This document shows, piece after piece, positions 55-44,908 of a DNA stretch of 64,000 nt. Source of the stretch: Cucumis sativus (lineage: Eukaryota > Streptophyta > Magnoliopsida > Cucurbitales > Cucurbitaceae); NCBI RefSeq assembly GCF_000004075.3, contig NC_026660.2, positions 248,001 through 312,000 of the forward strand, in the 5' to 3' direction. Numbering within the stretch: the stretch's first letter is position 1; each line of letters starts with the position of its first letter. A program made the position numbers and the translations under genes. Below the pieces are notes generated by a model. That model had not been told where the DNA came from and did not search any database. It saw only the letters and a list, made by a program, of their open reading frames with translations.

Positions 55-373
55 TTGGAGTCTCAAATCTAAGAACCATTTGGTTTGTTGTATCCAAAAG
101 ATGGATAGTCATTGAAGAAAAACTTCCACCATCCAACATAGCATCATGGAAAGGTTCAAGGGAAACCTTGGAACTTTTATTATGATCCACAGAAAAGTTG
201 GTGAACAATCGTCGCGACAACTGCAGCGTTGCAATGAACCGAGGGGAACGGTTCGATACGATTATCATGAGCATCAACGGTGTGAATTTCACGTCGGCTT
301 CCTTAGCAACTTGAGCCAACAAGGAGGTTGCATCAATGAGAGGTTCAAATTGCTCAAGCCTTACTAAGAACAT
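55..373 (-). CDS. PCNA-like gene 1 (partial, exon 1 only)
   Basis: Exon 1 of a PCNA-like gene whose exons 2-4 lie beyond the left edge. The ATG (371-373) sits in the same CACCACCATGTTC context as genes 2 and 5. The exon ends at 55 in phase 1 before a GTTAGT donor. The 106 residues align with PCNA domain 1: FEPLIDATSLLAQVAKEAD at the start, FTNFSVDHNKSSKVSLEPF like PCNA's HYRCDRNxSMGMNLNNM, and LRFETPS like PCNA's FMFESP. It is closest to gene 2. No in-frame damage is visible in the part present. Function unknown. Confidence 0.8.
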
Positions 374-1062
374 GGTGGTGGCCGAAGGAGAGAATTATTA
401 CATATCACAAAACAAGTTTAGAGTACTAATAAAAATTAACGTGTTTGAATAAATTAAATTAACTAAAATATTGGAGGTTGTTAGTATCTAAGTCTTATTT
501 CCTTCTTTCTAGTTGAGTAGTTGCTAAGAATGAGCAAAGTAATTTGATTTAGTATTAATTATTTTTTAAAAAACAATTTCCTACTCCTAATTTTTTTATG
601 CTTATTCTTTTCCACATTTTAGGATATTATTTAACCTTTTTACGATAATTTTATCATAATTTTTTTAGTTTTGTATTAAAATTTTCATGAGAAAATATAA
701 CTATGTATATGGTTTTAAAGATTTTTTTTAGTACATACATGGATTGAGCTGATAGACACTGCAATTTTAGTTAAATTAAAGACTTCATTACATATCTAAT
801 GATAAATTGCTTGAGATGTTATAGGTTAATTTTACCATGCTTTTTTGTTTATTGTGTTAAGTCATGACTATTTAGAATAACCCAAGAAGTACTTCTATAA
901 ATAATGTATACAATATGAACTCAAGGTTTCAACTTTCTAGAGAAATGAGTGAGTTTCATAGACAAATATAATCCACAAACAGTTTGCAAAGATGCATATT
1001 CAGAGATGCAAAAATTAACAATGTCAGTCAAACAATGACCACCAAACAATCTCAACGTAAAC
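374..1062. other. Intergenic, AT-rich
   Basis: Spacer between gene 1 (minus) and the last exon of gene 2 (minus). It contains the 5' flank of gene 1. I see no additional coding exon, RNA gene or repeat that I can support. Confidence 0.6.
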
Positions 1063-2542
1063 CTATTTTGCCATGCACATGTAAGTGGTGGGAAAATAGA
1101 TTGCGTATTGACCATAAATTCCAAAAGCTGGAACCATCATTACAGTATAAGCATTATTCTTTGTCTTATAAAACCAAACCCTGCTTGCTCTATATGTAAA
1201 ATTGAGGAAAAACAACATAGGACAAAGATTGATTTGGAATTGAGTTTCAACTTCTTCTTCAAAACCTTCGATTCTACAATGATCACCCTACAAAAACATC
1301 AAACCAATTACGTACAACAACATGCACTAAACTAATCAATAAAATGTTGATCTGATCAAGTACTGGTTTAACATAAAGTAATTAACTCTAAAGCGTTTTG
1401 CATATTTTTAGTTTTAAAAATTCATCAATACTTTATAAACACTCGTTCAATGATCTCTAAGTTTTATACTTTGTAATTATCCACCTTTTACCAATATTAT
1501 TCTAATTAGTATTTAAACAAAGAAGATAAAAAAAAGACCTATCGATCTCACAGTAATTCATTTTATTTGAAAAGCACTTACAGTACATTATGATATTAGA
1601 AGATGGTGAACAATACCTCACTGAAGACAATATCGTGAGATGCAATGGAGAACTTGATTTGAGAAGCGGTTACACAAACACAAATGACTGTGACACATAA
1701 ACAAGTTGTTAAAAAAACATAACTAAATTGAATCACTTTCTTCCAAACAAATGTATGGAAAGAAAAAAAAGATTATCAATTACTTGAATCATTTTGGAAG
1801 ATAGGTAACTCTTTTATAACTCTTCTTAATGACTTAGATGTAACTATGAAAAATTTCTGTAGATTAAGTTCATGTTGGCCAATTCGATCGTCTTCTGATT
1901 GGGGAGGTGACAAAGTCAATTCACGATGCAAAGGTTGGATTTGGCCTAAAAAAGAAATCATATGATGATTATAATTAATTTGACTAAACCCTAAATCAAA
2001 AAATTTAAGATTTAAGAGAAAAATCTCCCACAAAAATAATCAAGATTTTTATCATGTAAAACTATCTTCTTGAAAAAAAAAAAAAAAAAAAAGTAACAAG
2101 AAGATTATTCTAAAATTTTGTTCAAGAAATGACAAGAATATATAACATGTAATTGTTTTAGAAGCAAGTTAAAGGATTCATTATTCTCAAAGACCAGAAA
2201 GAAAAATATACACTAACTTGAAGGAGTATCAAATCTAAGGATCATTTGGTTTGTTTTGTCCAAGAGATGGATTGACATTGTAGAAAATTCTCCACCATCC
2301 AACATAGCATCATGGAAGGATTCAAGGGAAACCTTAGAACTATGAACATGATCAACGGAAAAGTTGGTGAACCATCTCGGCGACAATTGTAGCGTTGCAA
2401 TGAAGTTCGGGAAACGGTTCGAGACGATTAAGAAGAGCTTCCCTGGTGTGAATTTCACGTGGGCATTGTTGTTGGAATATAGAGCAAGAAAGTAGGTTGA
2501 GTCAAGAAGAGGCTCAAACTCTGTAAGCTTGACCAAGAACAT
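1063..2542 (-). CDS. PCNA-like gene 2
   Basis: Four exons on the minus strand: 2218-2542, 1784-1945, 1617-1687 and 1063-1287; about 260 aa. Exon 1 (MFLVKLTEFEPLLDSTY...) matches PCNA domain 1. Exon 2 opens at the PCNA connecting-loop position and carries FFIVTSKSLRRVIKELP, the counterpart of PCNA's IVRMPSxEFxRICKDL. Exon 3 reads VCVTASQIKFS, so Ala stands where PCNA has Lys164. Exon 4 has the family core, with HCRIEGF in place of ECxxxGG, then FFLNFTYRASRVWFYK and IYFP, and ends at TAG. Intron 3 is unusually long (329 bp). The 3' exon is easy to miss because it has no usable ATG. It lies head-to-head with gene 3. Confidence 0.82.
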
Positions 2543-3577: not shown

Positions 3578-4576
3578 ATGCTAATGTTTAGTCTTGAGAA
3601 TTTGGACCCTTTTTTGGATGCAATATACATTCTATCTCGATTTGGTGAAAATGCTAACATTGAATGTTCCCCATCAATGTTTTCCCTAATAGTTCCTCAT
3701 CATAACCTTGAATTGAATGTTGCCTTTCAAATGATGCCTCAATTTTTCAATTACTTCTTCTCCAACAGAACTCACTCTTCAAAAATCCCCATTCAACCAT
3801 TATTCAATACCATCAAACGCATGAAAGAATACCAAATCACTTCACTCTCCTTCTTTGTTCTCAAACTTCTTGATCGCTTAGTCCTCAAATTTTCCTCTCC
3901 CAGTAAGTTTAATGTTCTCATTATTATTTTTAATTGATTGCACTAATAATCTTATAATTAATCCCTTCTCTTTTTTCTTCTTAATTTGATTATTTAGGGA
4001 ATGAGCTACCCTTGATTCGTAAATTTAGAATGAGGTGTGCAGTAAAGGAGGATATGGGAAACATTGATTTGGAAACCTTTGTTTCCATTGATTCACAACA
4101 ATTCAGACGTGTTGTAACTGGGTGTCGTGATTACTTTGGTGATATATTTGATTAATTTTCTTTATTATCTGATCTCTCATATTAATATTTTTTTGGTTAG
4201 TAATTAGTTTGTTGTTGTATTTCACAGTTAGGGTTACTACAACGCATTCACACGTCAGGTTCTCTAATGAAATCAAGGAGTTCATTTTTGCTAGAGAGGT
4301 ATGGTAAAGTATTTTTCACTCAAGAATCAAGTATCTATCTTTCTCTAAAAATAATTGATTGGTGTGATGTAGGGAGGAGAATGCATAATGGAAGGTGTTG
4401 GGAAAGGGAAAGGGACTGAATTTCTGATCCCTATTTATCCAACTCATGTTTTCTATAATATCACTTTTCGAGCAAAAAGAGTATGGTTGTTCAAGTCTAT
4501 TGATAAACTTGGTACTTTCATTGTTGCTCCTGTTGGACTCTTTGCTCGATTTGTCATCTATTTTCCTCTTGGATGA
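3578..4576 (+). CDS. PCNA-like gene 3
   Basis: Four exons: 3578-3902, 3998-4138, 4228-4298 and 4373-4576; 246 aa with short introns (74-95 bp). The start is MLMFSLENLDPFLDA; a second in-frame ATG lies at 3584. Exon 2 contains DLETFVSIDSQQFRRVV, equivalent to the PCNA domain-2 start. Exon 3 reads VTTTHSHVRFS, with His at the Lys164 position. Exon 4 runs GGECIMEG to APVGLFARFVIYFPLG. It is the close paralogue of gene 6 (10,384-11,539), which lies in the opposite orientation. Similarity continues into the 3' flank, including a shared TTCTTGAAGG-containing stretch. It looks intact. Confidence 0.87.
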
Positions 4577-5282
4577 CTTGTAGAAAAAAAAAATGTAATG
4601 CTTTTGAATCGATTAGATCAATAATATAATCATCATCTTACCACATACCTGTGATTACAATATTATTATATTGTCACTTCTCTTCTAATTGCCAAACTAT
4701 ATATACTTAATATATTCTAGCTTCCAGCTTTTGCTCTTTTCTGCTTATTGTTCTTGAAGGGATCAGTTGATGTTTTCCGCTTATTAACTATAGTGTGCTT
4801 GGGTTAATCAAACTCATTTTTATGTATAAAACTTAATGTGATTATGAAGAGTTCTAAACTCTTTAAATTTTATGTTAAAATTAATGGGTGAATTAGTGAA
4901 AATTGAATCAAAAGTAAAAAAAGTAATTTCCACGTGATTTTTGTTTAAGTTAATTAGGGTACCACAAAACAAATGTAGATATATATATATTTTTGCCTAA
5001 AATGATCAATAGAAGCATACCCTTTTTAAATAAACCTAGGGCAAGTTTACATCCCTAAACTTTGTTAGATCTACATTATTATGGCATAAAATACATCCTA
5101 GTAATGCAGATATATATAAAAGGTTGATGTGAAAGCATATAATATAATGGGCCTAATTAATTAAGGGGCCTAAGTTGTTAATATAAAAAGAAGATAATCA
5201 TCATGGACACAATTGAAATTTGAAATTAAATTGGTGCTAGTGATGTTTAAACTCTAGAGAGATCGTAGGAGAGAATTTGAAG
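4577..5282. other. Intergenic between genes 3 and 4
   Basis: The first 200 bp is homologous, inverted, to the 3' flank of gene 6 around 10,200-10,380. The rest is AT-rich, with a TATATAAAAGG motif at about 5112-5122 that could serve gene 4, although it is 160 bp from the ATG. No gene is seen. Confidence 0.5.
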
Positions 5283-6771
5283 ATGAAAGTTGACAAACTC
5301 ACTCCTCTTGTAGATGCAATGTGTCTACTTTCTCAAGTTTTTAATGAAGCAGATGTGATATTCGCACCCACATTGATCTCCATAACTGCTTCTAACCCTT
5401 CTTTCGTTGCCTTCACTATAACATTACATATTAAAAAACAATGGTTTACAGAATATTCAATCCATCGCCATCGAAGTTGGAGAATTTCCCTTCATTCCCT
5501 TCTCCAAGCTATGTATGCTGGTAGAAATTCTTCAAGAATGACCATTCGACTTCCCCCCATATCATCAACCAATTCCAGTGCCATGGTCCTAAAATTTTCC
5601 TCTTCAAGTTAGTATATAATATATATGTATTCATCAATGATACATGTTCTTATAATCGTTTAATTCAAGATTAAGATTCTTGTTTCTTTTTACTTCAACA
5701 ACCCCCTTCGTTTATTTGATTTTTCATATTCGAAAAATTATCTTTTTGCTCTCTATCTTGATGAACAATATATCCATATTGGCCTGCTCTTTATACTGTT
5801 ACAATTTATCGATTAAGAATAATCTATGTTTCTTTTTCTTTATTTTAAGTCTAATTTTCAATTTTATCCCCTAGAGTATTTCAAAACGGTACAATTTTTA
5901 TTCTTTGAGTTTTTTGAGTAATTTTCTTTTGATGTAATCTCAATCTTTTTAAGATGTAACATTTCTTCTCTAGAGGTTTGAATTTTATTTCAATTTTGTC
6001 AATTTATTTTAGAACTTATACCCTTTTAATTTTATTTTTGCACTAAAACCCTATCATATATTTTGATCAGTATATATGATGTTAATATATGTGTATTAAA
6101 TTATCTAGGGTATTCAAAGCCACTAGTCAGTAAAGTGAACTTATCACCTCCGGAAGAGGCAGGTTTAGAGAGAATCGAATTCAGAAAGTATTTTTCGATT
6201 TCTTCGGAAGGTTTTAAACGTGTTATAGTCTATCTATGTCTTCTTAATGATGCTTCAGGTAAGCTCGATACATAAATCTTGTTTGTGTTTAAAATACATT
6301 TTTTAGAACTTTAGAAACACAATCCAAATATGTCCTATCTTCTTCTTTGAAGTTTCACATGGAATCTCGAATCATATTACACGTATTTTTAATGATTTGT
6401 TTTTATGTATCTGTATAGTTCTTGTCACACTAACAAATTCAAAAGTTAGATTTGTTGCTGCACTCGATTATGAGATCATTCTTAACAAAAAGGTAAATAT
6501 ATTGTTCATAAAATTTGAAATGAATTATTATTATCAAAGTGATCATCAATAACATTTGATTTTGCAGGATGGAGAATGTGAGATTGTAGGTTATAAAGGA
6601 GAATTTCAAATTGATTTCAAACTGAGTCTCTTCCCCATGGGATTTATCCTTAATTTGACAAGAGACGTACCTAAGATATTTTTTTCTATCACAAAATCTC
6701 ATGTTGTCATGACTTTCCCAGCTTTTACACCTTTTAGCCAATATATGCTTTACTTTCCTCAAATCCAATAA
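5283..6771 (+). CDS. PCNA-like gene 4
   Basis: Four exons: 5283-5607, 6109-6258, 6419-6492 and 6568-6771; about 250 aa. The start is the first ATG in frame (MKVDKLTPLVDAMCLLSQ). Exon 1 ends FSSSS and is followed by a GTTAGT donor. Exon 2 has FRKYFSISSEGFKRVIVYL. Exon 3 reads VTLTNSKVRFV, with Asn at the PCNA Lys164 position. Exon 4 begins DGECEIVGYKGE and ends MLYFPQIQ. The exon 4 DGECxI(V/I)GYxGE form is shared with gene 16 (38 kb), suggesting these two form a subgroup. Intact reading frame and canonical splice sites. Confidence 0.86.
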
Positions 6772-7684: not shown

Positions 7685-9179
7685 TCAATCCAACTCTTGC
7701 AACGCTGGAAAACGGACCATCAAAAAATGAGGATGGACATGAAAAGGAAATTTGATTATTGCATAAGAATCATTTGATTTGAAGAACCATACCCTTCGAG
7801 CTTCATAAGGGAAATTGAGGAAAAATGAGGATGGATGAAGAGGCATATGCATTTCACTCACAACTTGTCTATCACCTAAAATCAAACACTCTCCATTCTG
7901 CACACAAACATATTTTTTGTCTAACGATTACTTTTCTTTTTCTAAACTGTTAGTTAGTACACCAAGACATCTCAATGAATTCTAATTTTCTATTTGATTA
8001 TTAAGCTCCTTAATTTTTTTTAAGTTTGATTTTAGTTAATTAGTTCTGAAATTTTAAAACATAGTTATAATTTTACTCTTAGAGATTGATTTCAAGATTT
8101 GAAATAATTATGAAGTGGCATTTTAAATTAATTTTAATACGATGAAAAAATAGTGAAACTTAATTATGCTTTAATTTGTTTAAATTATTTTAAGTTAATT
8201 AGTAGTGAAAAAAAATCAAGAGTTAAAGTCTTTACACTGTCAAGGAACCTAATTGAAATAATTTTAAAAAAATTTCAACCTTATCTACAAATAACACAGT
8301 ATGCATACATACATACATATATATATATTAAATAATGATTTTTTTAATATAAAGTTTATAGAACACATACCTCTTCAGTAATAATAACTTCGTGAAATGG
8401 ATTAAGAACAGAGAATGAGACTTTTGAACCCACAGAAGTAATCAAAACTGAGAGAAATGAAAGAACCTAAGATTAGTAGATTATATATATATAAATTAAA
8501 GCACTTTTTCAGTTTAAAGTAAATTATATGAAAAAAAAAGCATTTAATTACTTGTATCAACTTCATTGTAATCATAAAATGTTGTTATAATATCTCTAAA
8601 CAAATCTGACTCAATGGAGAAACTCTTTGCATCAAAGTCAATTTCTCCAGCAGACCAATCTTCCATAGGCACTTCGAATCTCATTTTACGACGCATTGGT
8701 ACTGGTGAATGCCCTTAAAAATTAATATATTAAACATAGTCAATGCATGTTAATTCATAAAGAAATTCCCATAAAATGAATGAACCAAACCGATCAAGAA
8801 ATGACAAAAATGCATGAAGAAAAGGGTATTATATATAATAATAATGTATATACTAACTTGAAGGCTCAAATGCAAGACATATAATATTCTGTTCTTCTTG
8901 AAGATGGATTCTCAATGAGGAATAGGTTTGACCTCTTGCCAAAGCAGTGTGCAAGGACAGGAGGGAAACCCTTAAAATGTGATCCCGGCCAACGAAATAC
9001 TCGGCGAACAACGGTTCCGGTATAAACAACATTGCAAAGAAGAAAGGGTGTTGGTACCGAGCAATTATTGAGAACGTCGACAGCGAGAATTTCAGGCAGA
9101 TTTTGTCGTTTACGATATCGGTGAAGAGGGAGATTGCATCCAAGAGAGGATCAAGTTTGTCAATCTTGATAGAGAACAT
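7685..9179 (-). CDS. PCNA-like gene 5
   Basis: Four minus-strand exons: 8858-9179, 8552-8713, 8371-8447 and 7685-7897; about 257 aa. The ATG is in a CACCACCATGTTC context, with a TATAAAA at 9290-9284 about 105 bp upstream. Exon 1 is MFSIKIDKLDPLLDAISLF...; exon 2 has FDAKSFSIESDLFRDII; exon 3 has ITSVGSKVSFS (Gly at the Lys164 position); exon 4 has NGECLILGDR...RRVWFFKS. The reading frame is open and all splice sites are GT-AG. It is the nearest relative of the fragment at 7290-7505. Confidence 0.86.
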
Positions 9180-10383: not shown

Positions 10384-11539
10384 TCAGGGAATAGGAAAGT
10401 AGATGGAAAATCGAGCAAAGAGTCCAACAGGAGCAATGATGAAAGAACCAAGTTTATCAACTGACTTGAAAAACCATACTCTTTTTGCTTCAAAACTGAT
10501 ATTATTGTAAACATGAAATGGATAAGTAGGGATTAGAAATTCAGTTTCTCCTTCAACTATGCATTGATCTCCTGCTCCCTGCATCATCACATTCAACCAA
10601 CCAATCACTTTCTTAACTTATAAACATTTGATTTTTTAATCAAAATTTTTAAGGAAAAAATGTTCTTGAAAACTATGGATTCATTCGATACGAAAAATGA
10701 TTATTCAATAATAGAATATGAGAATAAATTTAGGAGAATACCTCTTTAGGAAAAATGAACTCCCTAACTTCATTAGAGAACTTGACGTCTGAATGTCTTG
10801 GAGTAACACTTACTGTAAAATACATCAAATTATTAGGAAAAAAACTTACAAATCATATTCTTTCAATCAAGTAATATGAGAGAATTAAACAATAAAAAGA
10901 AAAAAAAAAGATGAATTATATGTGTGTGTGTATATATAATTACCAAAGTAATCCCGACACTTGTTTATAATGCGTCTAAATTGCAACGAATCAATTGAAA
11001 CAAAGGTTTCCAAATCAACGTTTCCCAAATTCTCTTTGACTGCATACACCTTTCCAAATTTACGAATTAAGGGTGGCTCAGACCCTAAAAAAAAGTAAAA
11101 CAAGATTGATTATTCTTGGATTTCTTGAAAGAATTAATGAGAGAAGATATATATATATATATACAGTGAAAGAAAATGAAGCAATTAAAGAATGATGAGA
11201 ATTAAAATACTAACTTGGAGGGTACAATTTGAGGACTAAGTGATCAAGAGGTTGAAGAACAAAGAAAGAAAGTGAAGTAAATTTGGATTCTTTCATGCGT
11301 TTGAGGGTATTGAATAATGGTTGAGTGAGGGTTTTTGAAGAGTGGGTTTTGTTGGAGGCGAAGTGATTGAAGAATCGAGGCGTCATTTGAAAGGATACGT
11401 TCAAGTCAAGTTCATGGTGAAGAACAATTAGGGATAACATTGATGGAGAACATTGGATGATAGTGTTTTCACTACATCGAGATAGAATACGCATTGCATC
11501 TAAAAGAGGATCCAAGTTCTCAAGTCTAAACATCAACAT
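10384..11539 (-). CDS. PCNA-like gene 6
   Basis: Four minus-strand exons: 11,215-11,539, 10,944-11,084, 10,742-10,812 and 10,384-10,578; 243 aa. Exon lengths 325, 141 and 71 are identical to those of gene 3. The protein shares MLMFxLENLDPxLDA, DLETFVSIDSxQFRR, CRDYFG and GLFARFxIYFP with gene 3. Exon 3 reads VTPRHSDVKFS, with His at the Lys164 position. Exon 4 has GDQCIVEG, with Gln before the Cys where most members have Glu. An in-frame upstream ATG would add 30 hydrophobic residues, which I reject because gene 3 lacks them. Intact. Confidence 0.86.
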
Positions 11540-12778: not shown

Positions 12779-13837
12779 TTAGACAAAATAGGAAGTAATC
12801 TCAGAATGAAGATTAACAGGAGAAACCATTGCCATGCAATTACTCAAACTTGGTCTAAAGAACCAAACCCTTTTTGTTGAGAAGCTATCGAAGAACGGAA
12901 CCGGCCTGAAAGTGATTGTAAATTTCATTTCATCTTTCACTTTTTTAATGCCTCCGATTATACAATTCCTAGACTGCAAAATTCACCACAAGAAACCCAA
13001 TAACTTAATTCAATTTTAATCAATAGAAGTTAGAAGAAGAAAAGAAAAAGAAAAAGAAAAACATACTTGTTTAGTAAATCCAATATTCAACAATTTACTA
13101 GAAGTGAATCTCACAGATGAACGTGCCACAGTAACCCTAGCTGATATTATAAATAAATTCAACAAATTAAAGAATCAATTATTTAGAATAAAGAAACAAA
13201 AGAAGAAGAAGAAGAAAACAAAAAGATTTACCTGTATGATCATTTAAATCACGTATAAGGGTTTTGAATAGTTCTGTTTCCATAGTGAAGAATGCATCAT
13301 ATTGAATTGAGGGAATATCTTGCGTATCAAGAGGAAGTTTATCTAATGTACGTACATTTGACATTAAGGAATCTCTCTTATCACCTAAAGCATGAAATAA
13401 ATAACCAAAAGGTAATTATATATTAATCTTGAAATAAATAAGTTAAGAAGTTAAAGAAAAGAAATATAATAAGGTAGAATGGGGATCACAAAACATAGTA
13501 CTTAACTGAAAAAGGTAATGACACCTTCTTTCTTTGATTTGCGACCATCAATAAGTTTGAAGTCAAAGGATTGGAATAGCATCTTGGTTCTTGCAGTTTT
13601 AAAGAGTCTGTAAAGATGATCAATATGGACGTTGTAGTGATAAAGGGTATTGCAATTGTATTGGGTGAAGAATTGAGGCAACAATTGTAAGGTTACTAAG
13701 GTGAGTGGGAAATCTGCGTAACTTGTAGAGAAAATCAACAGGTTTGGATAGCTTTTGAAATACCCATTTTCATTGATTCTGCTTAGGGTGAATAAAGCTT
13801 GTTCAATTGGAAGATATGGGCACTTGAAGTAGAGCAT
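12779..13837 (-). CDS. PCNA-like gene 7
   Basis: Four minus-strand exons: 13,507-13,837, 13,232-13,384, 13,067-13,140 and 12,779-12,973; about 250 aa. A TATAAAT lies at 13,917-13,911, about 75 bp upstream of the ATG. Exon 1 (MLYFKCPYLPIEQALFTLS) is more diverged than average but keeps LLPQFFTQYNCN. Exon 2 has YDAFFTMETELFKTLIRDL. Exon 3 reads VTVARSSVRFT, with Arg, the only basic replacement of Lys164 besides the His of genes 3 and 6. Exon 4 has RNCIIGG and RVWFFRP and ends SYFV. Intact. Confidence 0.84.
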
Positions 13838-15200: not shown

Positions 15201-16342
15201 CTAATTAGAAAAAGAAACCAAAAATCGAGCATACAAACCAAGAGGGACACATATTGCACCTTTGGACGAATTTTTTGACTTGAATAACCAAACCCTTTTT
15301 GATCTACTTGCCAATCTACATAAACTTTCCTTTGCTTTCAAATTTACTACAAACTCAATTTCATTGCTTGCCCCAACTCCACCAATAATGCACCGTTTTC
15401 TCTGTATAGTCATAAATTTTTTTCCAAAACAAAAAAAGATACGTTAGGTTGGATCAGTCGCTACACCAGAAGTTTGACATAAACACAAATTAAAAGTAAT
15501 AGATTGTCACCTTATATATTGTTATTATTAACTTAATTTTATGACAGCTTTAGAAAGTAATTGCAACCCTTTATATATTCAAAAGGGTGTAATTGATACC
15601 TCTTGAGTAAGAATCATATGTGTCCCAGCATAAGAGAATTTGACTTGTGAATTCGTTATTGTGACTAAAACTGTATGTGAAATATAACAACGAAACTTTT
15701 ACAAACTCAACACCATAAACACTAATTTCTTTCAAAATAATATATATGTGTGTGTGTGTGTGTGGAAATAGAAGAAGGGGAGAATTGTTTACCAGAATCA
15801 AAATTATTCAACGTTACAATGTTAATGAACTCTTGTGAACTGAAGGAGACGAAAGTTTCCCAATCCAACTGATCATTGACATCCATCAACTCGTCCGAAT
15901 GATACATTGGGAAATCAATCTCTCGAAAACGGCCTAAAAGTTTGAATATATATTGACAGAACTTCCAAGAACGAACATATATATATATATTATAAGAAAA
16001 ACTAAACTAACCATCACGGCTGCAAAATGTGAGGTCGGCATGATGCGAATCTGCGAAAGAGAATGTGAGCGAAGAAAAACCGGTTCGTTCCAAATGGAAC
16101 ATTTCGGGGAAAAAGTGGTTGATGTAAATCCATGAGTAGTGAAGTTGTTGGCAGGAATATTGTTGATTGAAGAATGGAGGAAATAGTTGAAGGGCTATGG
16201 TACAAGAAGGGGAAGGTGTGGGGTTGGCCATTATTGAGAACATTTCTGGTGAGAATTTGAGATTGAATACGTAGCCAAGGCCGGCGAGAGCGGAGACGGC
16301 ATCGACGAAGCTGTGGATTTCGTCGAGTATGAAGACGAACAT
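15201..16342 (-). CDS. PCNA-like gene 8
   Basis: Four minus-strand exons: 16,012-16,342, 15,793-15,933, 15,600-15,670 and 15,201-15,401; 247 aa. Exon 1: MFVFILDEIHSFVDAVSALA with LFPPFFNQQYSC. Exon 2: DWETFVSFSSQEFINIV. Exon 3: VTITNSQVKFS, which matches plant PCNA VxVTKEGVKFS except that KEG is replaced by NSQ. Exon 4: RKRCIIGG, KRVWLFKS, PLGLYARFLVSFSN. It is head-to-head with gene 9, with 416 bp between the ATGs. Intact. Confidence 0.87.
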
Positions 16343-16758: not shown

Positions 16759-18361
16759 ATGGCGATGTTAAAGTTTAGGGTTAATCCGTTAAGTGGTCTT
16801 TTGAATCCAACTCCTGTTCTAAGCCATCTTGGTGAAGAAGTGGATATCAGAGTCTCACCTCTTAAATTATCCCTAATGCTCCCAAACTTTTCTCCTTCTT
16901 TCATTGCTGGTCTTCAAATGACTCATGAATTTTTCAATCTCTATATCTCAGATAGGACTTACCAATTCAGGTTTTCCCTTCGAAAGTTTTATACATTTAT
17001 GTATCGAATGGAACTTCAAGGTTTTTCTTCAATGCTCTTCACTGTCGATATGAAACGTTTACTATCTGTTTACCTTACTTTTGAAAATAACAATGCAAGT
17101 AAGTCTCTTCTACCTTTGCTCCTTTTCCTTATTGATTTGTTTATTAATTCAAGAATGATTTACGTCTATGATCTTGTTTGAAAGCCATTTCGTTTTTCGA
17201 TTTTTTCGTTCTTGAAATTTTTATTTAGGACTTTTTTTATGGGTTTTGATAGTGGTTTTCTTTTTCTCAATATTTATCCAAGAGTCATCTCTTTTCAATC
17301 CCATTTGAAAATCATTTCGTTTTTTTTGTTTGTTCTCAAACATATTGTATTTAGGGGTTTTTCTCTATTAATTTTTCCGTTGGGTTTTGATTATTGACTT
17401 TTTTTCTTTCATTTTCTTCTCAATTTCTATATTAATTTAAGATTTAATTAAGAACGATCTTCTTCAACCTCGTTTAAAAATCATTTCGTTTTTTTATTAT
17501 CAAAATTTGTATTATGTTTAGGGTTTTGTTTTTCTCAATTTTTTCGATAACGACTTTCTATATATTTTAAGACAATATAATAATTGGAATTACATTAGAC
17601 TCTATAAATTGTAACATTAGAAAAACGAAATGACTATCAAACGGGGCGGTTGATTTTTCTTTTTGTTTCAAGAATCGATAATTGAAATATTATCTTTTTG
17701 ATCTCAAGTGTTGATAATTATAATTGTCATTTTTAGAAAGAGAACGACGAAGATTAAAATTGCTAGCTTATGATCTAGATCTCGACGGAGACATTGAGTA
17801 TACAACTTTTGTCTCAATTGATTCAAGAGACTTCAGACGTATTGCTTCAGAATTAAATTCTCGTTCCGGTAATTTTTCTTTCTTCAAATCTCCTATAACA
17901 TATAATATTTGATTGTAATTATAAAGTTCTCTAACTAAAGTTTTTGTGGTTGAATATTGTCTCAGTTTCGGTTACTTTTACGAATTCACGAGTCAATTTT
18001 TTTAATAAAAACAAAGAGATTACTTTTAGCAAAGAGGTATTATTTGATATATATGTATTATAATTTTTATATTGACTCTAATTTGGTGCGAACATGTTTT
18101 GATTAGAAGTTGGTTTGATGTTAATTTTGGTAGGAAAATCAATGTGTAATAGGAGGTGTTGAAGAAGGAGAGGAATTTCGATTTATAATCACAGTTCATC
18201 CATTGGTGTTTTTTCTTGATTTGAGCAGTCAATCAAAACGGGTGTGGTTCTTAATGCAAAGGGATTTCTCGTGTATAATGATTCTTCCTTTGGGACTGTG
18301 GCAACAATTTTGGGTCTATTTTCCATCTCAGTGTCATATTCATATACCTCTATTTGACTAA
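16759..18361 (+). CDS. PCNA-like gene 9
   Basis: Four exons: 16,759-17,098, 17,737-17,868, 17,966-18,036 and 18,134-18,361; 256 aa. Exon 1: MAMLKFRVNPLSGLLNPTPVL, with MTHEFFNLYISDRTYQFRFS like PCNA's HYRCDRNxSMGMN. Exon 2: EYTTFVSIDSRDFRRIASEL. Exon 3: VTFTNSRVNFF (Asn at the Lys164 position). Exon 4 has no ATG of its own but is clear: ENQCVIGGVEEGEEF, FFLDLSSQSKRVWF, and a C-terminal tail after YFP (SQCHIHIPLFD) that most members lack. Intron 1 is 638 bp and contains a tandem repeat. Confidence 0.86.
17181..17560 (+). repeat. Tandem repeat in intron 1 of gene 9
   Basis: Three diverged copies, each opening with AAA(G/A)(C/T)CATTTCGTTTTT (about 17,181, 17,308 and 17,477) and later GGGTTTTGAT or a TTTAGGG(G/T)TTTT variant. 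Period about 130-170 bp. Lies wholly in the intron and explains its length. Confidence 0.7.
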
Positions 18362-28606: not shown

Positions 28607-29919
28607 TCATTCCAGTAAAGTGATAGTAAGTCGAGATTCAAAGCCAATTGGAGCTGACATTACAATATTGGTTTTAGTTGTCTCATGATGAAACCATACC
28701 CTTTCTATCCATGATGCCAAATCGTTAAAAAATTTGGTGGGTCGCAACTTTACTGAGTATTCAATTCTTTCCTCAACATCAACACCACCAATTATGCATT
28801 CGTTGTCCTGCAACGTCGTAAGCGTAGATTAATTGACGTGAATTTGTAAAAACTCGATCCCCTCCACCACACATATAATAATAATAATAATGTTTTTTTG
28901 ATGATCAACATACCTTTACACTAAAAGTTATCTCTCCGGATTCACTTGAGAACATCACTTGTGAATTAGTCAAAACAACACCAACTGTGAAACAAATTAA
29001 ACAACAAACCAATTTAGTTTATCCTGTAAGAGCTTCAATTGATAAGAGAAGAAAGAAGAGATGAGTTATGGTAATATATTATTACCTTTGTCAAAACTTA
29101 TAAACTCTCTTACAATTCGCTTGAATTGGTTTGAATCAAGTGAGACAAATTTTGTACTTGTAACCTCGCTAAAATCCTCTTTATCTTCTGCTTTTGTTAC
29201 CTTTACTATACTAGTCAAGCTTAAGGGCGCATCCCCTCCATTACAGTACCAAGAAATCAATATGTCAAATTGTATAAGATTTTATTTAGTTTATGTAGTT
29301 CTTGAAATAGTTTATTTATGTTCGTTGAATTATACGGAGATGCCATTAGTTATTTGTTAAAGATCAAGAAAGACATGATTCCAAGTCAAAATCTAAACTA
29401 AGTTAAATGAAACAAATGACGTTTTTTAGCACTTCGTTAATAAAAGAACAATCAAGATCAAAATGGCAAGTTCACAAGATTAGTAGAAATTAAGTTAAAG
29501 GATCGAATATAATCCATACGTAGAAACTTCATTCATTGATTATTTGAAGAAAAAACGAAAATGAAGAAGAAGTAGTTACCAGATTCGTCATTTTGAAATG
29601 TAAGGGTTGCTAATGGTTGTAGACCACGATCAAGATTGAAGTCCATCCAAGAAGAATGACATATTTTATCGCTTAGAAGATTGTAAAGTTCCTTAAGATG
29701 AATTTTGAAATACCTTGAAAAAGTTTGAGGTGTGCAATAATGGAGTAAAAGTGGAGGTCTGATATGTAGTATTACATGGAGATCATGGGAGACCACTACC
29801 AACTTTAAATCACAATCGTAAAATTCCAAAAGGGCTGTTTCTTCACCAATTGTAGTGAGTAAATGGAATGCTCTCATAAAACGAAGGAGGCCGCCATGTT
29901 CAAACCTGAAGATCCTCAT
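28607..29919 (-). CDS. PCNA-like gene 13 (unit C)
   Basis: Four minus-strand exons: 29,580-29,919, 29,086-29,235, 28,914-28,984 and 28,607-28,807; 253 aa. The start MRIFRFEHGGLLRF is conserved in genes 12 and 14. The exon 2 acceptor appears shifted: the usual AATAG|ATGCGC is changed, and the next AG (AATGGAG|GGGATGCG) keeps frame and adds three residues. Exon 2: TSTKFVSLDSNQFKRIVREF. Exon 3: VVLTNSQVMFSSE. Exon 4: DNECIIGGV, IERVWFHHETTKTNIVMSAP. TATAAATA at 29,988-29,981. The reading frame is intact if that acceptor is used. Confidence 0.83.
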
Positions 29920-31307: not shown

Positions 31308-32608
31308 TTAATTCAGTAAAGTGATAATAAATTGAGATTCAAAGCCAATTGGAGTTGAGATTACAATATTGGTTTTAAGTGTCTCATGATAAAACCATAC
31401 CCTTTCTACCAATGATGTCAGATCGTTAAAGAATTTGGTGGGACGCAACTTTACTGAGTATTCAATTCTTGTCCCAGCATCAACACCACCAATTATGCAT
31501 TCGTTGTCCTGCAACGTTGTAAGCGTAGATCAATTTACGTGAACTTATAAAGATTTGATCCACTCCACTACACATGTAATAATAATAATATTTTTTTTAT
31601 GATCAATATACCTTTACATTAAAAGTTATCTCTTGGGATTCACTTGAGAACATCACTTGTGAATTAGTCAAAACAACACCAACTGTGAAACAAATTAAAC
31701 AACAAACCAATTTAGTTTATGATGTAAGAGCTTCAATTGATAAGAGAAGAAAGAAGAGATGAGTTATGGTAATATATTACCTTTGTCAAAATTTATAAAC
31801 TCCATTACAATTCGCTTGAATTGGTTTGAATCAATTGAGACAAATTTTGTACTTGTAACATCGCTAAACTCCCACCCTAAAGCTTCTAAATCTGATACAT
31901 TTATTATACGACTCAAGCGCGCATCTATTCCAATACCAAGAAATTAATAAGTCAAATTGCATAAGATTTTGTTAGTTTATATAGTTCTTGAAATAATTTA
32001 TTTATGTCCGTTGAATTATGTGGAGATGCCATTATTTGTTAAAGATCAACAAAGACATGATTTCAAGTCAAATTCTAAACTAAGTTAAATAAAACAAAAC
32101 GGCGTTTTTTAGCACTGTATTAATAAAAGAGCAATCAAATTCAAAATGGCAAGTTCACAAGATTAATTAGTAGATATTAGGTTAAAGGATCGAATATAAT
32201 CTATAGGTAGAAACTTTTCATTCATTTATTATAAAAAGAAAAGACGAAAATGAAGAAGTAGTACTTACCAGAATCATGATTATCAAATGTAAGGGTTACT
32301 GATTGTGGTTGACGAGGATCAAGATTGAAGTCCACCCAAGAAGAATGACATATTTTATTGCTGAGAAGATTGTAAAGTTCCTTAAGATGAATTTTGAAAT
32401 ACCTTAAAGAATGAGGAGGTTGGTAATAATGGAGTAAAAGTGGAGGTTTGATATGTAGTATTATATGGAGATCAGGGGAGACCACTACCAACTTTAAATC
32501 AAAATCGTTAAATTCCAAGAGGGCTCTTTCTTCACCAATCGTAGTGAGCAAATGGAATGCTCTCATAAAACGAAGGAGGCCGCCATGTTCAAGCCTGAAG
32601 ATCCTCAT
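31308..32608 (-). CDS. PCNA-like gene 14 (unit D)
   Basis: Four minus-strand exons: 32,269-32,608, 31,781-31,924, 31,612-31,682 and 31,308-31,508; 251 aa. Start MRIFRLEHGGLLRF. Exon 2: TSTKFVSIDSNQFKRIVMEF. Exon 3: VVLTNSQVMFSSESQ (Asn at the Lys164 position). Exon 4: DNECIIGGVDAGTRIEYS, VERVWFYHETLKTNIVIS. TATAAA at 32,676-32,671. Intact. Differences from genes 12 and 13 are scattered single substitutions, consistent with recent tandem duplication. Confidence 0.87.
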
Positions 32609-33740: not shown

Positions 33741-33820
33741 AGGGCCAAACCCTAAAGAACGTCTTTCATAACTTCAAGATCATAGAAATTGTAATAATAT
33801 TGAGGAGATCAAAAGGCCAA

Positions 33821-34880
33821 ATGGAACTCAGGCTTGAGAACATCCATAGTTTTTCAAAAGCACTTCTCCCACTCGAGCGATTCCATGATGTAGCAGATTT
33901 AAAATGCTCACCCAAAATGTTCTCCTTAATAATCTCTCGCCATTTCCCTCTTATCATTACATCTCTTCAACTTCTTCCTCCTTACTTCACAAATTTTTTT
34001 TGTCAAAACCAAATTTTCCAATACCAAATCCCCATCAAATCTTTTTACAATATCATGAACACTATGAAACAAAGATTTTATTCTTCAATGATACTCTTTC
34101 TTCATCACCAACAACCCCTCAATCAAATCTTCCTTCAGTTTCGCAATCCAAGTAAGTCTATACACACACTCAAAGACTTTCATTATTCAAGAATTTGTTT
34201 CATTTCTTGCAATCAAGTTTCGAGTTTGCATTTAAATTTCCTTAGGGGTGGTTGATGATCAAGATGTACTTTTTCATGGATTTCCATTGTCACCTTCAAG
34301 AGAGGAAGATGTAGGGGAAATTGATTATGGAATCTTTTTCTCAATTGACTCACTTGTGCTTAGATTCATTGCAACAGAGTTAGATGATTACGATGGTAAT
34401 TAATTAATTTTAGAAAAAACAATCTTTTCTTTTCTCTCTTTAATTAAGTCGTTATTAACTTCTAAAATATATTCTCTTGTGGTAATTAATTTAGCATTGG
34501 TTACTCTAACGAATTCAGAAGTCAAATTCAGTGTTAATGATAAGGAGATAAGTCTTTACAAAGAGGTATATATATAATACAATTTAATTGAATTCTTTTT
34601 GCAATAATTATTTAAGTATTTTATAATAATGTGTGTGTGTTGTGTGTAGGTAGATGAATGTATAATTGGAGGGGTTGCAGATGAAGAAGAAAGTCGATTC
34701 TTTGTGTACCTAAATCCCAAAATACTTTTTAGAGATTTGGCAAATAAATCAGAAAGGATATGGATGTTCAAGTCTCCTAATTCCTATAGTATAATTGTTG
34801 CTCCTATTGGATTGTATGCCCAATTTTGTGTCTATTTTCCCCAACTAGAGGAAAAATCCAAGAGGCAAAGGATATGTTGA
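33821..34880 (+). CDS. PCNA-like gene 15
   Basis: Four exons: 33,821-34,151, 34,246-34,395, 34,495-34,565 and 34,650-34,880; 260 aa. Start MELRLENIHSFSKALLPLERF. Exon 2 has the clearest connecting-loop match: FPLSPSREEDVGEIDYGIFF, aligned to PCNA's LGIPEAEYxAIV, followed by SIDSLVLRFIATEL. Exon 3: VTLTNSEVKFS (Asn at the Lys164 position). Exon 4: VDECIIGGVADEEE, SERIWMFKS, YAQFCVYFPQLEEKSKRQRIC. It ends in a basic tail after the position of the canonical PCNA C-terminus. Intact, with short introns. Confidence 0.88.
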
Positions 34881-38168: not shown

Positions 38169-39320
38169 ATGACCCGTGCCACCTTGTTCTTTGTCAGCAT
38201 TGACAATTTTTCTCCTCTTGCAGACGCAGCCGCTCTACTCACTAATATTGCTCATGAAGCCGACGTTGAAATCTCACGCACACAGTTTTCCATAATCGCC
38301 ACAGGATATTCCCATTGGTTCGTCGCTTCGCTGCATATTTGGGAACCGTTTTTCGCCAACTATTATATCGATGAAGATCCAATCACTTCAAGAATTTCTC
38401 TCCCAGCACTCCATCATTCTTTGAATCGAGCAAGAAATGCTCGTTTTTCTTCAATGATCATGCGTGTGCAGAAAAGCCAAAACTTCCTATTCTTTGAATT
38501 TACAAATTCAAGTTAGTATTATTATACTTTCTTCATCATCCTCACCTCAAGGATAATATATATATGCTATTTCTTGATTATGTTTCTTTTGTTGTATACA
38601 TTCTTGCATTGATCTTGATGTTAGCAAAACAAAAGCTTATAATATATCACTAATTGATTTTTCTCTTTCTTCTTCCTCTTCGAAATAGTCCCTGTAGGAG
38701 ATGATAGAGATGAAAGATTTTATCGGAGATTGTTTTTGTCACCTTCACAAGGGGTGAATTTAAGCCAAATTCAAATTGATCATCAAAATTTTTTCACCAT
38801 TCATTCAAACGATTTTAGACGCATAATAACAGAAGTTTCTCATTTGCCAGATGGTTTTGGTATTAATTACAAACAACACTCTCACCTTTTTTATATTTAT
38901 TAATATATGTTTTTAGTAAATTAATTAAATTTGTTTGTTTGTTGATCACAGTTGTTGTTAGTGTTACCAATTCACAAGTCAAGTTCTCTATTCCATCTAT
39001 AGAGATTATTCTTACCACACAGGTAAAAAGGTTCATATTCATTTGGATTAAACTACCTTCCAAAACCTTCAAATTATAATGACAAACTTTTCAAGAGTTG
39101 GTATCTTTGTGTGCAGGATGGAGAATGTCAAATTATAGGGTACCAAGGAGAAGTCGAAACTCGGTTTCGAATCATTCTCCATCCGACCTCGTTTTTCCTT
39201 TCATTGGCAACTAATTCAGAGGATATTTGGTTTCATAAGACAATTACTAACTTTGCTATAATCTCTATCCAAACCTTAGAATGTTATATTGATTATGCAA
39301 TCCATTTTCTCAATATATGA
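38169..39320 (+). CDS. PCNA-like gene 16
   Basis: Four exons: 38,169-38,511, 38,689-38,859, 38,952-39,022 and 39,117-39,320; 262 aa, essentially canonical PCNA length. The start MTRATLFFVSIDNFSPLAD follows a TATA box; an upstream TTG frame extension is rejected. Exon 2 retains a long connecting loop, then FFTIHSNDFRRIITEV. Its donor is GGTATTA; an alternative GT four codon positions earlier is weaker. Exon 3: VVSVTNSQVKFS, identical to a plant-PCNA-like strand except that KEG is NSQ. Exon 4: DGECQIIGYQGEVET. Intact; probably closest to gene 4. Confidence 0.87.
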
Positions 39321-40340: not shown

Positions 40341-42168
40341 TCAGAAACAAACAAGATAGGAAGCATGTATATTGACACAGCAACTCAAAAAATGGCGAGG
40401 ATAATTTTCAGCTGCAATGAAGAACCAAACCATCTTGGAGATGGAAGCTGTGTAATAGAAAAAATGCAATGGAGATGGACATATTAGGAAGAACTGTCTT
40501 GCTCCTCCTGTTGGAACTCCCCCCATTACCATCATGTTCTCATCATCCTATAAACACACACATCAATATCCAACTTTTATATACTCATTAATTGATTCAT
40601 TTCCCATATATATTGTCCATAGGGGTTTCCATTTCATTGGTGAATACCTGTGTGTTGTAAGCAATTTCCCGTCTTAAAGATTTGAACAGGGCGTTCGTCG
40701 TTGATACATAAATCACAACTGTTGAAGAAGAAGAAGAAGAAGAAGAAGAAATTTCATTAGAAATTACTTTTTAATTAACTATGAGAGGGAGAGAGAGAGA
40801 GAGAGAGATTAAACTGCTAATTAAAGGAAGAAGATGATGGAGTTAGTTTGATTAATTACAATATTCCCCGGCCAACACACGTAAGTCGGTGAGAATCTTC
40901 AGGAATTCATCTGAACGAATTGCAAAGAAAACACCCATATCAACTGGGTACATATTTATTCGGCGAGCACGTGCCAATAACAATGCTGAGAATTGCAAAT
41001 ATCCCGAACCTGAAACCAATTATTAACAACTAACAAATTTTCATCAAGATTACACCAAATGATTCATACTCTCTGTTCTTTTTTTTCATCGATGGCATCT
41101 ATGAATTTCGATTTTATGTTCATTTTGTTTATTGCTTCTGAGTATAAATTAATAGAAGCAAAAACTAAATCCAAGAGATCTTCCGAAAAATTGTTGCATC
41201 CTATAATTAATCACACAGCAAATGCAATCGGAGATTGAATCAAAATTTCAAACCAGAGAAAAATCATCCTCAGTTCAAGAAATGGCCGCAACGACGAGAT
41301 TAAGAAGTTTAATTAGAGTTAAGATTCATCGGCAAAGAAATCACAGCACATATGACTCAACAACGATTCTGGAGATTAGAAAAAGAAATTCCGGAAATGT
41401 CCGAATATCGTCAAATCGATACACTCGAAATTTCAGACCAAAGAAAAATCATATCCTCAGTTCAAGAAATTGCCGCAAGAACAACATTCAGTTCAATTAG
41501 AGTCAAGAGTCACAGCACACAAGACACAACAACGAGAAAGAGAAATTCGGGAAATGACAAGTCAAATGGAAGATTCAATAAAATTTCAGAGCAGAGGAAA
41601 ACCATATATCGTCAGTTCAAGAAATAACCAAAACAACGAGATTCAGTTCAAGTAGAGTCAAGAATCATCAGAAAAGAGAAACGAAATCACCGAACACGAG
41701 GCAGAACAAAAATTGTAGAAATTATAAAATCAAGAAATCACCAGAGCACAAAAGGCTAGAAACAATTAAAAACAAATAAAATCTGAAGAAACAAAATGGA
41801 TAAAAGAGAGCGAAATACTTACGAGGATCATAAAATCTGACGGGAACGGTGGACTGAAATCGATTGAGATAGACAGTAACGGAAAGATCATCTGTGAGCA
41901 TATTAGAAATATTAGTGTGCAAGAGTTTAAGGTACAACCTAGCATGAAAAGAAGTGTACTGGCCGGCGAAGTTGGGATTAAATTGGAAGGAAGTGAAGAA
42001 TGAAGGAAAAATTCGAAGCACTGCAACGAAGTTATTGCGAGGAGTAACCACAAAGGACAAACATTGGAGTGAGCAATTGATTTGAGCAGTATTGGAAACG
42101 TTAGCTATTGGTAACAGTAAGCGCCTTAAGGCATTCCCTCTTTCAATATGAATGGTGAACATCGACAT
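40341..42168 (-). CDS. PCNA-like gene 17 (divergent)
   Basis: Four minus-strand exons: 41,823-42,168, 40,860-41,009, 40,648-40,718 and 40,341-40,547; about 257 aa. Three in-frame ATGs are possible (42,228, 42,168, 42,162). I chose MSMFTIHIERG because MFTI fits the family start. Exon 1: RIFPSFFTSFQFNPN. Exon 2: GVFFAIRSDEFLKILTDL. Exon 3: VIYVSTTNALFK (Thr at the Lys164 position). Exon 4 lacks the family ECxxxGG signature (ENMMVMGGVP) and the YFP ending but keeps MVWFF. TATATAAATA at 42,280-42,271. An outlier of the family; frame and splice sites intact. Confidence 0.78.
41225..41720 (-). repeat. Tandem repeat in intron 1 of gene 17
   Basis: Three copies about 160-180 bp apart share TTTCAGACCA(G/A)AGAAAAATCAT and CCTCAGTTCAAGAAAT, then GAGTCAAGA (first starts about 41,247, 41,425 and 41,585). 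The copies happen to be open on the plus strand, which produces spurious reading frames. Confidence 0.75.
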
Positions 42169-42877
42169 ACTGATCGGATCGGAGGAGGAGAAGGAGAAGA
42201 AATGAGAGTGGTGGAGTTTGGCGGGCAAAGATTATGAATATGAATCCTCCTTTCACTTCCTACATATCTCTATTTATATATTTATTTCCCTTTAATTCTT
42301 TTTTTATTGCATTATCAAGAAATTGCTTTCCAGTTTTTAAATCTTCCAAACTTTTCAAAATATTTATAAATATATCAATATATATCACTATCTCCATTAG
42401 TCGATTTTGTTTACTTTTTTTTTGTAAATATTTTGATGCTCGTTTGAATTAAGTATATAGCAACATTTTTAAAAAATTACAAAATAGCAAAATTTATTAG
42501 TAATAGATTAATATTTGCAAGTATATAGACTTTCAAAAACTACTTTTACCGTATTTGGAACAATGAGTGAGTTATTAAAATTTTAAATTATTATAGTTTG
42601 ATTAAAATATTTTATGTTTAAAGTGTTTTGTTTGTATAGAATATTTTAGTTTGATAAGAAAATAGTATAGAATTTTTAAATATTATACTTTTGTGATGGT
42701 TCTTTAATTTTTTTTGGGATTAGAGGTTGGATGTTCCACAAGAAAAACCTATTAAATCAATTTCGTTTACTTTTTTCCACAAATTTCAAAACCCTATTCT
42801 TTCTTTTTAGTATAACGGGGGAATTTGAACTGTACACATATCCTTTCTAGTGGTATTGTATTCTCTAAAATGGTCTG
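42169..42877. other. Intergenic between genes 18 and 17
   Basis: Gene 17 upstream region, a degenerate half TIR element at about 42,453-42,525 (GTATATAGCAACATTTTTAA and ATAGCAAAATTTATTAG), then AT-rich DNA. Confidence 0.5.
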
Positions 42878-44908
42878 TTATATATAGACATATCTATCTA
42901 AATTTGGCACTCTTTTGTATCGTAGAATTTTATGGAGAGAGAATGAATTTAAGAATGAAGTAATGCATATATCTCTAGGGTAAGAGGCAACAATGTTGGT
43001 CCATTCTCTTGCAAAGCAAATCACTGTAGTGTTCCAACGTGTTGATTCAAAGAACCAAACCAATTTGGTCAACTCCATTGAACGACCAAAAAAATCCTTG
43101 GGTTTCAAAGCAAATGAAAACTTGATTTCATAATCTTTGTCATTGAAACCTCCTGCCAAGCACTCTCTTCTCTGCACAAACATTAATAGTTCTTTTAGTA
43201 CTAATCCAAGATTCGATGCTATATAGTAATAAATGACTCTGAGCTTGTATCAATCCCTAAACATTCATCGTTGTAATCTCGTAAGTCTCTAAATCTAAAA
43301 CGTGTTCAAACAAGTTACTCAACAATAGTTCCTAAAGTATCAATTCTTAAACATTCGTTGATGTCGTTGATGTCATAGGTCCATGAATTTTAAAACATAT
43401 TCAAACAAGTTGCTCAATAGTAATTTCTTTGTAGTATGAATCTCTAAACATTCCATGTTGAATCTCAGAAGTCTCTTAATTGTAAAGACATGTGTACAAG
43501 TCACATCTAGTAGTAATTCCTTTAGTGTTCATCTCTAAGCATTCAATATTGTATAGTATAGGGCCACCAATTTTAAATCGTGTTCAAACAAGTTGTGCAA
43601 TAACAATTCCATTTTAGTATGAATCTCTAAACATATTTCATGTCGTATATCTCATAGGTCTCAATTTTAAAGCAAGTTGAAACAAGTTACCTAATAATAG
43701 TTGCTAATTCAGTAACTATCCCAAGACATTCAATGTTGTCTTGTAAGTATCTGAAGTTTAAAACGAGTTCAAATAAGTTAACCAACAATAGTTTCCTCAC
43801 TGTCAACCCATAAACCCATAAGTCTTTGAATTATAAAACATGTTCAAACGAGTTACACAACAGTATAATAGTATCATCAATCCCTAAACATTCAATGTTG
43901 TTTGTTGTATCTCATGGGTCTCTAAATTTTAAAACATTACCAGACAAGTTACCTAACAATAAAGAGTATCAATCTTCTAAGCATTCAAGATTGTATCGCA
44001 TAGGTCTCTCAATTTCAAAATGTATTTAGCAGACAAGTTACCCAACTTCAAATTTTGTATCTTATTATTGGATTTATGAGATAGTTTATAGACATTATTC
44101 TATATTGTATTACCTCAGCAGTAAGAAGAGTAGCCCCAATAATCTCCCCTTCAGCTGTTCTTCCATAGAACTTCACTTGTGAAGTCGATGCAGTAGCAAA
44201 AACTATTGCAGAGAGACAAATTTCGTAAACTTACAAGAACACTTTGTATATGTAAATTGCAAATAAGGAGAAGAGAAAACAAATTACTTGGACCATTGTA
44301 ATCAGATAATCGTGCTACTATCTCTCTGAACTTTACTGCATCAATTGCCACGAACAATTTGAGATCAAATTTGCTCACTCCCCGGTTTTGGGGAAGCATC
44401 GTCCACAAGGAAGCCAGAGATCGAAATTTCCCATCTCCTAAAATCAAATTAGAACAATCAAAAACAAAAATCTCGAATTTAGAACCTAATCGGCCAAAAC
44501 GCTAATTTAGGGGGGGGGGGGGGGGGGGGGGTGGTTCCTAATTGCAAAAAAAAAAAAAAACTAAATTTTTCGGAAACCGAACGTACTAGTTGAAGAAATT
44601 AGGCTGGCAGATGAGAAGGCACTGGGAACAAGAATAGTCAAGAAAAGATCTTCTTCGGCCAAGATAAGACGAGAAAGTTCTTGAAGATCGATGTCGAAAT
44701 TGTAATCGCCGTCGCCGCGGGAGAAAATGGTGAAGAATGGATCGAACATTTGGAAGGATACAAGGAAGGAATGAGATTCATCGGAGTAGGAGACAGCAAG
44801 CGACACCGATGATGGGAAGCATCGGAGAGTGGCGGAGTTGGAAACGGCGAGGAGTGAGAAAATGGAGCTCCTCAGTTCACCCAATCCAAGAATTTGGAGC
44901 GTAAACAT
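42878..44908 (-). CDS. PCNA-like gene 18 (divergent, C-terminally extended)
   Basis: Four minus-strand exons: 44,587-44,908, 44,288-44,437, 44,114-44,202 and 42,878-43,171; 284 aa, the longest member. Exon 1: MFTLQILGLGELRSSIFSLLAVS, MFDPFFTIFSRGDGDYNFDIDL. Exon 2: LKLFVAIDAVKFREIVARL. Exon 3 is 18 nt longer than usual (FATASTSQVKFYGRTAEGE, Thr at the Lys164 position). Exon 4: RRECLAGGF, KLVWFFEST, then about 30 extra residues after IVASYP. Intron 3 is 942 bp of diverged tandem repeats; intron 1 holds a 20-bp poly-G run. It marks the array edge, head-to-head with TAD1. Confidence 0.8.
43225..44060 (-). repeat. Diverged minisatellite in intron 3 of gene 18
   Basis: About ten degenerate units of 70-85 bp with the plus-strand order: CTCTAAACATTCA(A/T)(T/G)GTTG, (T)CTCATAGGTCTCTAAAT, TTTAAAAC(A/G)TGTTCAAACAAGTT, then (A/C)CCAACAATAGTT. 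Copies are strongly diverged, so it is old. Confidence 0.8.
44511..44562. repeat. Poly-G run next to poly-A run
   Basis: A run of about 20 G followed shortly by about 15 A, in intron 1 of gene 18 just inside the exon 1 donor. The exact length may be unreliable because long G runs are error-prone in sequencing. Confidence 0.9.

Follow-up and report, generated by a model that had tools for sequence, protein, structure and literature searches.

PCNA is a nearly invariant, low-copy protein whose ring keeps hold of the DNA-copying machinery, and archaeal PCNA1, PCNA2 and PCNA3 are the three subunits of a working ring. In the cucumber (Cucumis sativus) genome (226.6 Mb), canonical PCNA is encoded at C6:12.35 Mb (266 amino acids, aa) and C5:5.46 Mb (348 aa). 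Here we describe a cluster of 18 intact, spliced PCNA-like genes (g01 to g18; 243-282 aa) at C6:247,305-292,908, analyzed from a 64,000-nucleotide stretch of the same genome (C6:248,001-312,000; hereafter, the window). These genes belong to a new, large, lineage-specific PCNA-derived family within the known clamp fold family; our search of the PMC literature found no description of this family. The best overall explanation, to which we assign a probability of roughly 0.6, is that they derive from PCNAs and now serve as docking modules, not as processivity clamps.

The array genes resemble canonical plant PCNA in having four exons with intron phases 1,1,0 at about the same places, a predicted two-domain fold, and a similar length. 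However, they differ from it in their low identity (~20-30% in local matches), a third exon that is usually 9 codons shorter, the absence of K164 and several channel lysines, weak Pfam scores, their number (30 or more copies for which an open model exists), and one subgroup that is changing fast. Unlike the 9-1-1 clamp (RAD9, RAD1, and HUS1), they form a multigene family seen only in cucurbits, and their profile does not match the intronless cucumber HUS1. The likeness to the archaeal proteins (2hii and 2nti in the fold comparison) lies in the presence of diverged paralogous clamp subunits within one genome; however, three subunits there contrast with at least 30 genes here.

Gene models of the array

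Starting from a single gene, we made one profile for each of its four exons and widened these on the window itself. At E ≤ 1e-3, the profiles of exons 1, 2, 3, and 4 matched 18, 13, 11, and 17 of the window's open frames, respectively, and none of the four had any match when the window was reversed without complementing it; the E values of the 18 exon-1 homologues ranged from 1.6e-21 to 5.8e-37. We manually positioned the exons that the profiles missed, most of which are copies of exon 2 or 3, using splice sites. None of the 18 spliced frames contains an internal stop, and 12 genes lie on the minus strand and 6 on the plus strand. Both the exon-1 matches and the open spliced frames confirm the original prediction of 18 paralogues on both strands within ~45 kb. 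The lengths predicted at that stage (243-262 aa and one of 284 aa) were close to those obtained by re-splicing, which gave 243-260 aa for 17 genes and 282 aa for one. All 18 genes had been placed at 55-44908, and these are exact coding ends, as position 55 closes exon 1 of g01 and position 44908 is the ATG of g18; however, exons 2-4 of g01 lie outside the window. No further copies were found at E<0.1 in the 20 kb leftward of the array or in the 29 kb rightward of it, which end 10 kb past the window.

Three introns with phases 1,1,0 are present in 17 of the 18 genes. In g11, exons 3 and 4 are fused in frame (window 23147-23421), and this loss of the third intron occurs in g11 alone. Pairwise protein identity within the array spans 16-80%, with most members at 16-39%.

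Several models agree in length and layout with public proteins: g01 with melon P0003 (249 aa; 98.8% identity), g17 with melon P0011 (90.7% identity), and g18 with Cucurbita P0020 (69% identity). The public cucumber protein Csa_005727 is identical to residues 90-260 of g15, and its layout agrees from residue 90 onward. Six other public models (P0012, P0013, P0014, P0018, P0021, and P0023) are shortened or differently spliced relative to ours.

Descent from PCNA and extent of the family

Both canonical cucumber PCNA genes have intron phases 1,1,0, with exons that end at residues 106, 157, and 190. The first intron lies no more than two alignment columns from its PCNA counterpart in 14 of the 18 array genes; in the remaining four it is up to eight columns away, in an alignment loosened by gaps. 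For the second intron, 17 of 18 genes share the PCNA column and g02 is displaced by one. In all 17 genes with a third intron, it is displaced by five columns and adjoins a gap in the array sequences. The PCNA phases are kept for the first two introns in 18/18 genes and for all three in 17/18. The longer canonical gene (L007; C5:5,458,000-5,460,000) encodes a tail of ~85 residues beyond the clamp that is rich in lysine and glutamate; carrot is said to have a similarly long PCNA.

A profile of 16 of the 18 array proteins (alignment A1, from which g12 and g13 were omitted as close to g14) matched solved PCNA structures, including 7ep8 as a single chain (E=1.5e-17) and 3k4x as a fused chain (E=2.4e-40). 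This search returned 108 sequences at E≤1, and the best 60 of these 108 are all named PCNA. A profile of 15 cucurbit database proteins likewise matched solved PCNA structures. Using hhalign, the array profile aligned in register with cucumber PCNA over residues 1-171 (E=4.4e-12). Single members aligned to cucumber PCNA by BLASTP at E values as low as 2.9e-9 (g01), down to no match for g17. A Cucurbita relative (P0002) carries a precomputed PF00705 assignment.

Predicted structures show a two-domain clamp for a relative of g01 (predicted local distance difference test score, pLDDT, 88.6) and, less surely, for a relative of g18 (pLDDT 74.9), so that retention of the fold is a prediction for relatives of these two genes. 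In VIA-align comparisons, which do not separate PCNA from other clamp families, both predicted folds fit 9-1-1 chains as well as they fit PCNA. Because of the intron places and phases, the profile matches, and the two predicted folds, the earlier proposal that these genes encode full-length, PCNA-related clamp subunits is supported, and the array genes almost certainly descend from PCNA and keep its clamp fold.

The 18-copy array in 45 kb, which the original prediction described, is only part of the family, which extends beyond it by at least 12 further open four-exon copies. Genome searches with exon profiles located exons 1 and 4 at 13 more loci (Table 1); genome searches with the Pfam PCNA_N and PCNA_C models listed the two canonical PCNA genes only. 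An open four-exon model was obtained for all 12 distinct dispersed loci by a script that accepted open models only, with doubtful junctions in several (e.g., C5:20.18, C2:9.45, C6:2.170, and C6:2.175). The resulting set of 30 genes (18 array and 12 dispersed) excludes fragments, which occur at C2:8.66, C2:14.325, C6:6.80, and C4:21.19, and the locus at C5:17.65 Mb, a 99.9% copy of C2:18.34; weak matches at C2:13.35 (E=0.30) and C4:20.34 (E=0.45) were disregarded, and all family counts are lower bounds. The near-identity of the copied regions (L025, C2:18,336,001-18,346,000; L026, C5:17,649,001-17,659,000) extends over 10 kb with a family member in each, and it reflects either duplication in the very recent past or an error in the assembly.

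In a midpoint-rooted tree based on exons 1 and 4 only, the 12 complete dispersed genes nest within array lineages. Groupings comprise g05 with C2:9.45 and C2:18.34; g08 with the C3 locus, C6:0.55, and C6:7.045; g09 with C5:20.18; g03/g06 with C2:9.43; g02 with C6:2.175; and, less surely, g07 with C6:7.14 and C2:14.3. The gene at C6:2.170 pairs with a melon protein next to g01/g02. The joins of g18 with PCNA, g07, g15, and g16 carry long-branch risks. Dispersed copies thus cluster with particular array genes, and the array therefore looks like the hub of the family.

We identified 23 related database proteins, mostly named uncharacterized, hypothetical, or unnamed; all 20 with a recorded organism are from Cucurbitaceae (P0015, P0017, and P0022 have none), although the search was by shared words and could miss distant relatives outside this family. 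Two Cucurbita proteins, P0001 (487 aa) and P0002 (449 aa), apparently join neighboring members (g01-like with g18-like, and several g01-like, respectively) and are likely annotation fusions of a tandem cluster in Cucurbita.

Replication residues and evolutionary tempo

We compared the 30 genes at K164, which we take to be the PCNA modification site, and at seven residues that we assign to the DNA-lining channel (K13, K14, K20, K77, K80, R146, and K217). Lysine is absent from all 30 genes at K164 and at each of K13, K20, K77, and K217, where arginine occurs in 2, 0, 2, and 2 genes, respectively. At K14, one gene has lysine and five have arginine; at K80, lysine remains in four. Judged by this alignment, the loss of K164 and several DNA-channel lysines marks the family members as not ordinary PCNA. 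Net protein charge is -16 in the 266-aa PCNA versus -10 to +11 in the array, and the interdomain connecting loop has about kept its length while varying strongly in sequence.

The ratio of nonsynonymous (dN) to synonymous (dS) divergence is 0.45 for g01/g02 and 0.50 for g03/g06, and these pairs evolve under constraint; three wider pairs gave 0.51-0.82. Ratios among g12, g13, and g14 are 1.20-1.69, and those of g11 against g12-g14 are 1.20-1.34. Under a codon model, omega for g11-g14 is 1.55 and differs from 1 (p=0.012; p=0.024 for g12-g14). Diversifying pressure, which had been suggested for the array, is thus supported in part: it is seen in g11-g14 only and does not extend to the two constrained pairs.

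The signal is concentrated in one block of g12-g14 that straddles the first intron, with 20 codons from the end of exon 1 and 27 from the start of exon 2. A single run of 40 sites holds 30 of the 79 variable sites of g12-g14, and 0 of 20,000 shuffles were as extreme. The edge strand and the interdomain connecting loop both fall in this block; together they are presumably the segment where PCNA subunits meet and where partners with a PCNA-interacting protein (PIP) box bind. Within the block, dN is 0.301 and dS is 0.117 for g12-g14, and omega reaches 2.5 with four genes (p=0.02). Nonsynonymous divergence in the block exceeds that of the introns in all three g12-g14 pairs (p=0.004, 0.003, and 1e-6), which share branches. 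The least conserved ten residues across the 30 genes (g01 residues 111-120) fall in the same region. Intron 2 of g12, g13, and g14 (window 26000-26100, 28985-29085, and 31683-31780) diverges by only 3-4%, versus 10-18% in introns 1 and 3, and gene conversion there is possible.

Besides the array, the window contains a retroelement relic, a glycosyltransferase gene, a transfer RNA (tRNA) gene, and an open frame whose product we take to be MCTP-like, given its C2 and PRT_C domains (Table 1).

Table 1. Array genes, dispersed family loci, and other features (window positions unless a chromosome is given; negative positions lie left of the window)
Feature	Position	Strand	Description
g01	exon 1 at 55..373; exons 2-4 at -197..-45, -379..-309, -695..-489	-	exon 1 only in the window
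g02	1063..2542	-	4 exons, 260 aa
g03	3578..4576	+	4 exons, 246 aa
g04	5283..6771	+	4 exons, 250 aa
g05	7685..9179	-	4 exons, 257 aa
g06	10384..11539	-	4 exons, 243 aa
g07	12779..13837	-	4 exons, 250 aa
g08	15201..16342	-	4 exons, 247 aa
g09	16759..18361	+	4 exons, 256 aa
g10	20206..21476	+	4 exons, 258 aa
g11	23147..24266	-	3 exons, 251 aa
g12	25614..26900	-	4 exons, 252 aa
g12 hypervariable block	26161..26611	-	end of exon 1, intron 1, start of exon 2
g13	28607..29919	-	4 exons, 253 aa
g14	31308..32608	-	4 exons, 251 aa
g15	33821..34880	+	4 exons, 260 aa
g16	38169..39320	+	4 exons, 257 aa
g17	40341..42168	-	4 exons, 257 aa
g18	42878..44908	-	4 exons, 282 aa
Dispersed loci, C6	0.55, 2.170, 2.175, 7.045, 7.14 Mb
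Dispersed loci, C2	9.43, 9.45, 14.307, 14.316, 18.34 Mb
Dispersed loci, C5	17.65, 20.18 Mb
Dispersed locus, C3	35.83 Mb
Reverse transcriptase matches (RVT_1)	36016-36825		E 2.9e-5 and 9.6e-18; retroelement relic between g15 and g16
Glycosyltransferase family 90 gene	51924-54727		several exons
C2/PRT_C open frame	58045-61152		1036 aa; four C2 domains and plant PRT_C
tRNA gene	61604-61675		Rfam 64.9 bits

Possible roles of the family

The docking-module reading runs as follows. An intron-bearing PCNA gene was probably duplicated and then expanded in tandem, with copies seeded elsewhere in the genome, to give a family so far seen only in cucurbits. The products would be clamp-shaped docking modules, not processivity clamps, with an edge strand and connecting loop re-tuned copy by copy, and each copy may bind a different partner or pair only with certain clamp subunits. 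We put this docking mechanism at somewhat less than even odds. In a more specific and doubtful version, cucurbits would have a repertoire of clamp-shaped binding proteins, and positive selection would drive diversification of their docking edge and loop, as in an arms race with viral or mobile-element replication proteins or in reproductive conflict; the 18-gene array would be the hub from which new copies are seeded.

Several observations weigh against the docking-module reading. Exon 4 was not aligned to PCNA by hhalign. When 16 members were scanned singly against Pfam, no PCNA_N or PCNA_C match rose above the curated cut-off, all matches were weak, and PCNA_C (4/16; best E 0.023) and PCNA_N (2/16; 0.019) ranked behind Hus1 (3/16; best E 0.0028, a sub-threshold 17.2 of 27 bits in one member) and Rad1 (1/16; 0.004). 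Arginine is retained at R146 in 14 of the 30 genes, including 11 of the 18 in the array, and the total charge over the four channel helices (-4 to +5) equals the +5 of PCNA in g06, g13, and g14. The omega tests are modest and uncorrected for multiple testing, and part of the high g12-g14 ratio arises because dS is low, as the introns of these genes diverge by 0.10-0.14 and exceed it, which inflates omega. The block boundaries were picked post hoc with the data already seen, and with three genes the block omega is 2.3 (p=0.06). Outside the block, the ratios are 0.99 in early exon 1 and 0.85 in exon 4, the high ratios in the remainder of exon 2 and in exon 3 rest on one synonymous difference apiece, and the rest of the gene gives p=0.08-0.12 against an omega of 1; dN there is near or below the intron rate and significantly lower in one pair. 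The same block has a ratio of 0.43 in g01/g02 and 0.68 in g03/g06.

The retained channel charge of g06, g13, and g14 would suit alternative sliding clamps, that is, homo- or heterotrimeric rings formed with each other or with PCNA that load special polymerases in particular tissues. A complete clamp fold is predicted, and heterotrimers of Arabidopsis PCNA1 and PCNA2 have been reported in vitro (PMC6570896). However, lysine is missing from all 30 genes at five aligned positions, most members share only 16-39% identity with each other, and the least conserved stretch of the family contains the strand that we take to be the PCNA subunit edge; we consider this role unlikely.

The aligned lysine sites also bear on use in conflict or immunity, in which the proteins would be decoys for, or inhibitors of, PCNA-recruiting DNA viruses or mobile elements and would be proof against SUMO conjugation. 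Plant PCNA is bound by geminivirus Rep proteins, which reduce its sumoylation at K164 and K254 (PMC10548238). In the array, neither aligned residue 164 nor aligned residue 254 is a lysine in any of the 18 genes, with the alignment weak at residue 254 and three genes gapped there, and g11-g14 change fast. However, such a pattern would also fit conflict over reproduction or centromeres, and g01 is nearly unchanged in melon; we judge this alternative improbable.

Largely nonfunctional remnants of tandem duplication, under relaxed constraint and close to neutral evolution, would explain the dN of g12-g14 outside the block, the weak single-member Pfam matches, and the several fragments elsewhere. 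Open frames in 18/18 array genes and open models at 12/12 dispersed loci (as selected by the script), the low dN/dS of the two constrained pairs, and the retention of close relatives in several genera point the other way and make such an outcome quite improbable.

Descent from a 9-1-1 clamp gene (HUS1, RAD1, or RAD9) is exceedingly improbable: although Hus1 and Rad1 gave the best, still weak, single-member Pfam E values, the Hus1 profile touches exon 1 of g01 (E=0.69), and the predicted folds match 9-1-1 chains equally well, a HUS1 origin was rejected because cucumber HUS1 is a single uninterrupted exon to which hhalign of the array profile found nothing (E=0.16), and the intron places and best solved-structure matches are those of PCNA. 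RAD1 and RAD9 each have one cucumber locus above the cut-off, both outside the loci of the array family.

The presence in a crop plant of 30 or more open-frame descendants of PCNA, some of them fast-changing, breaks the rule of PCNA near-invariance. The family is a natural experiment on which parts of a clamp can be re-tuned, and it points to a conflict or specialized replication role that is testable in cucumber or melon.

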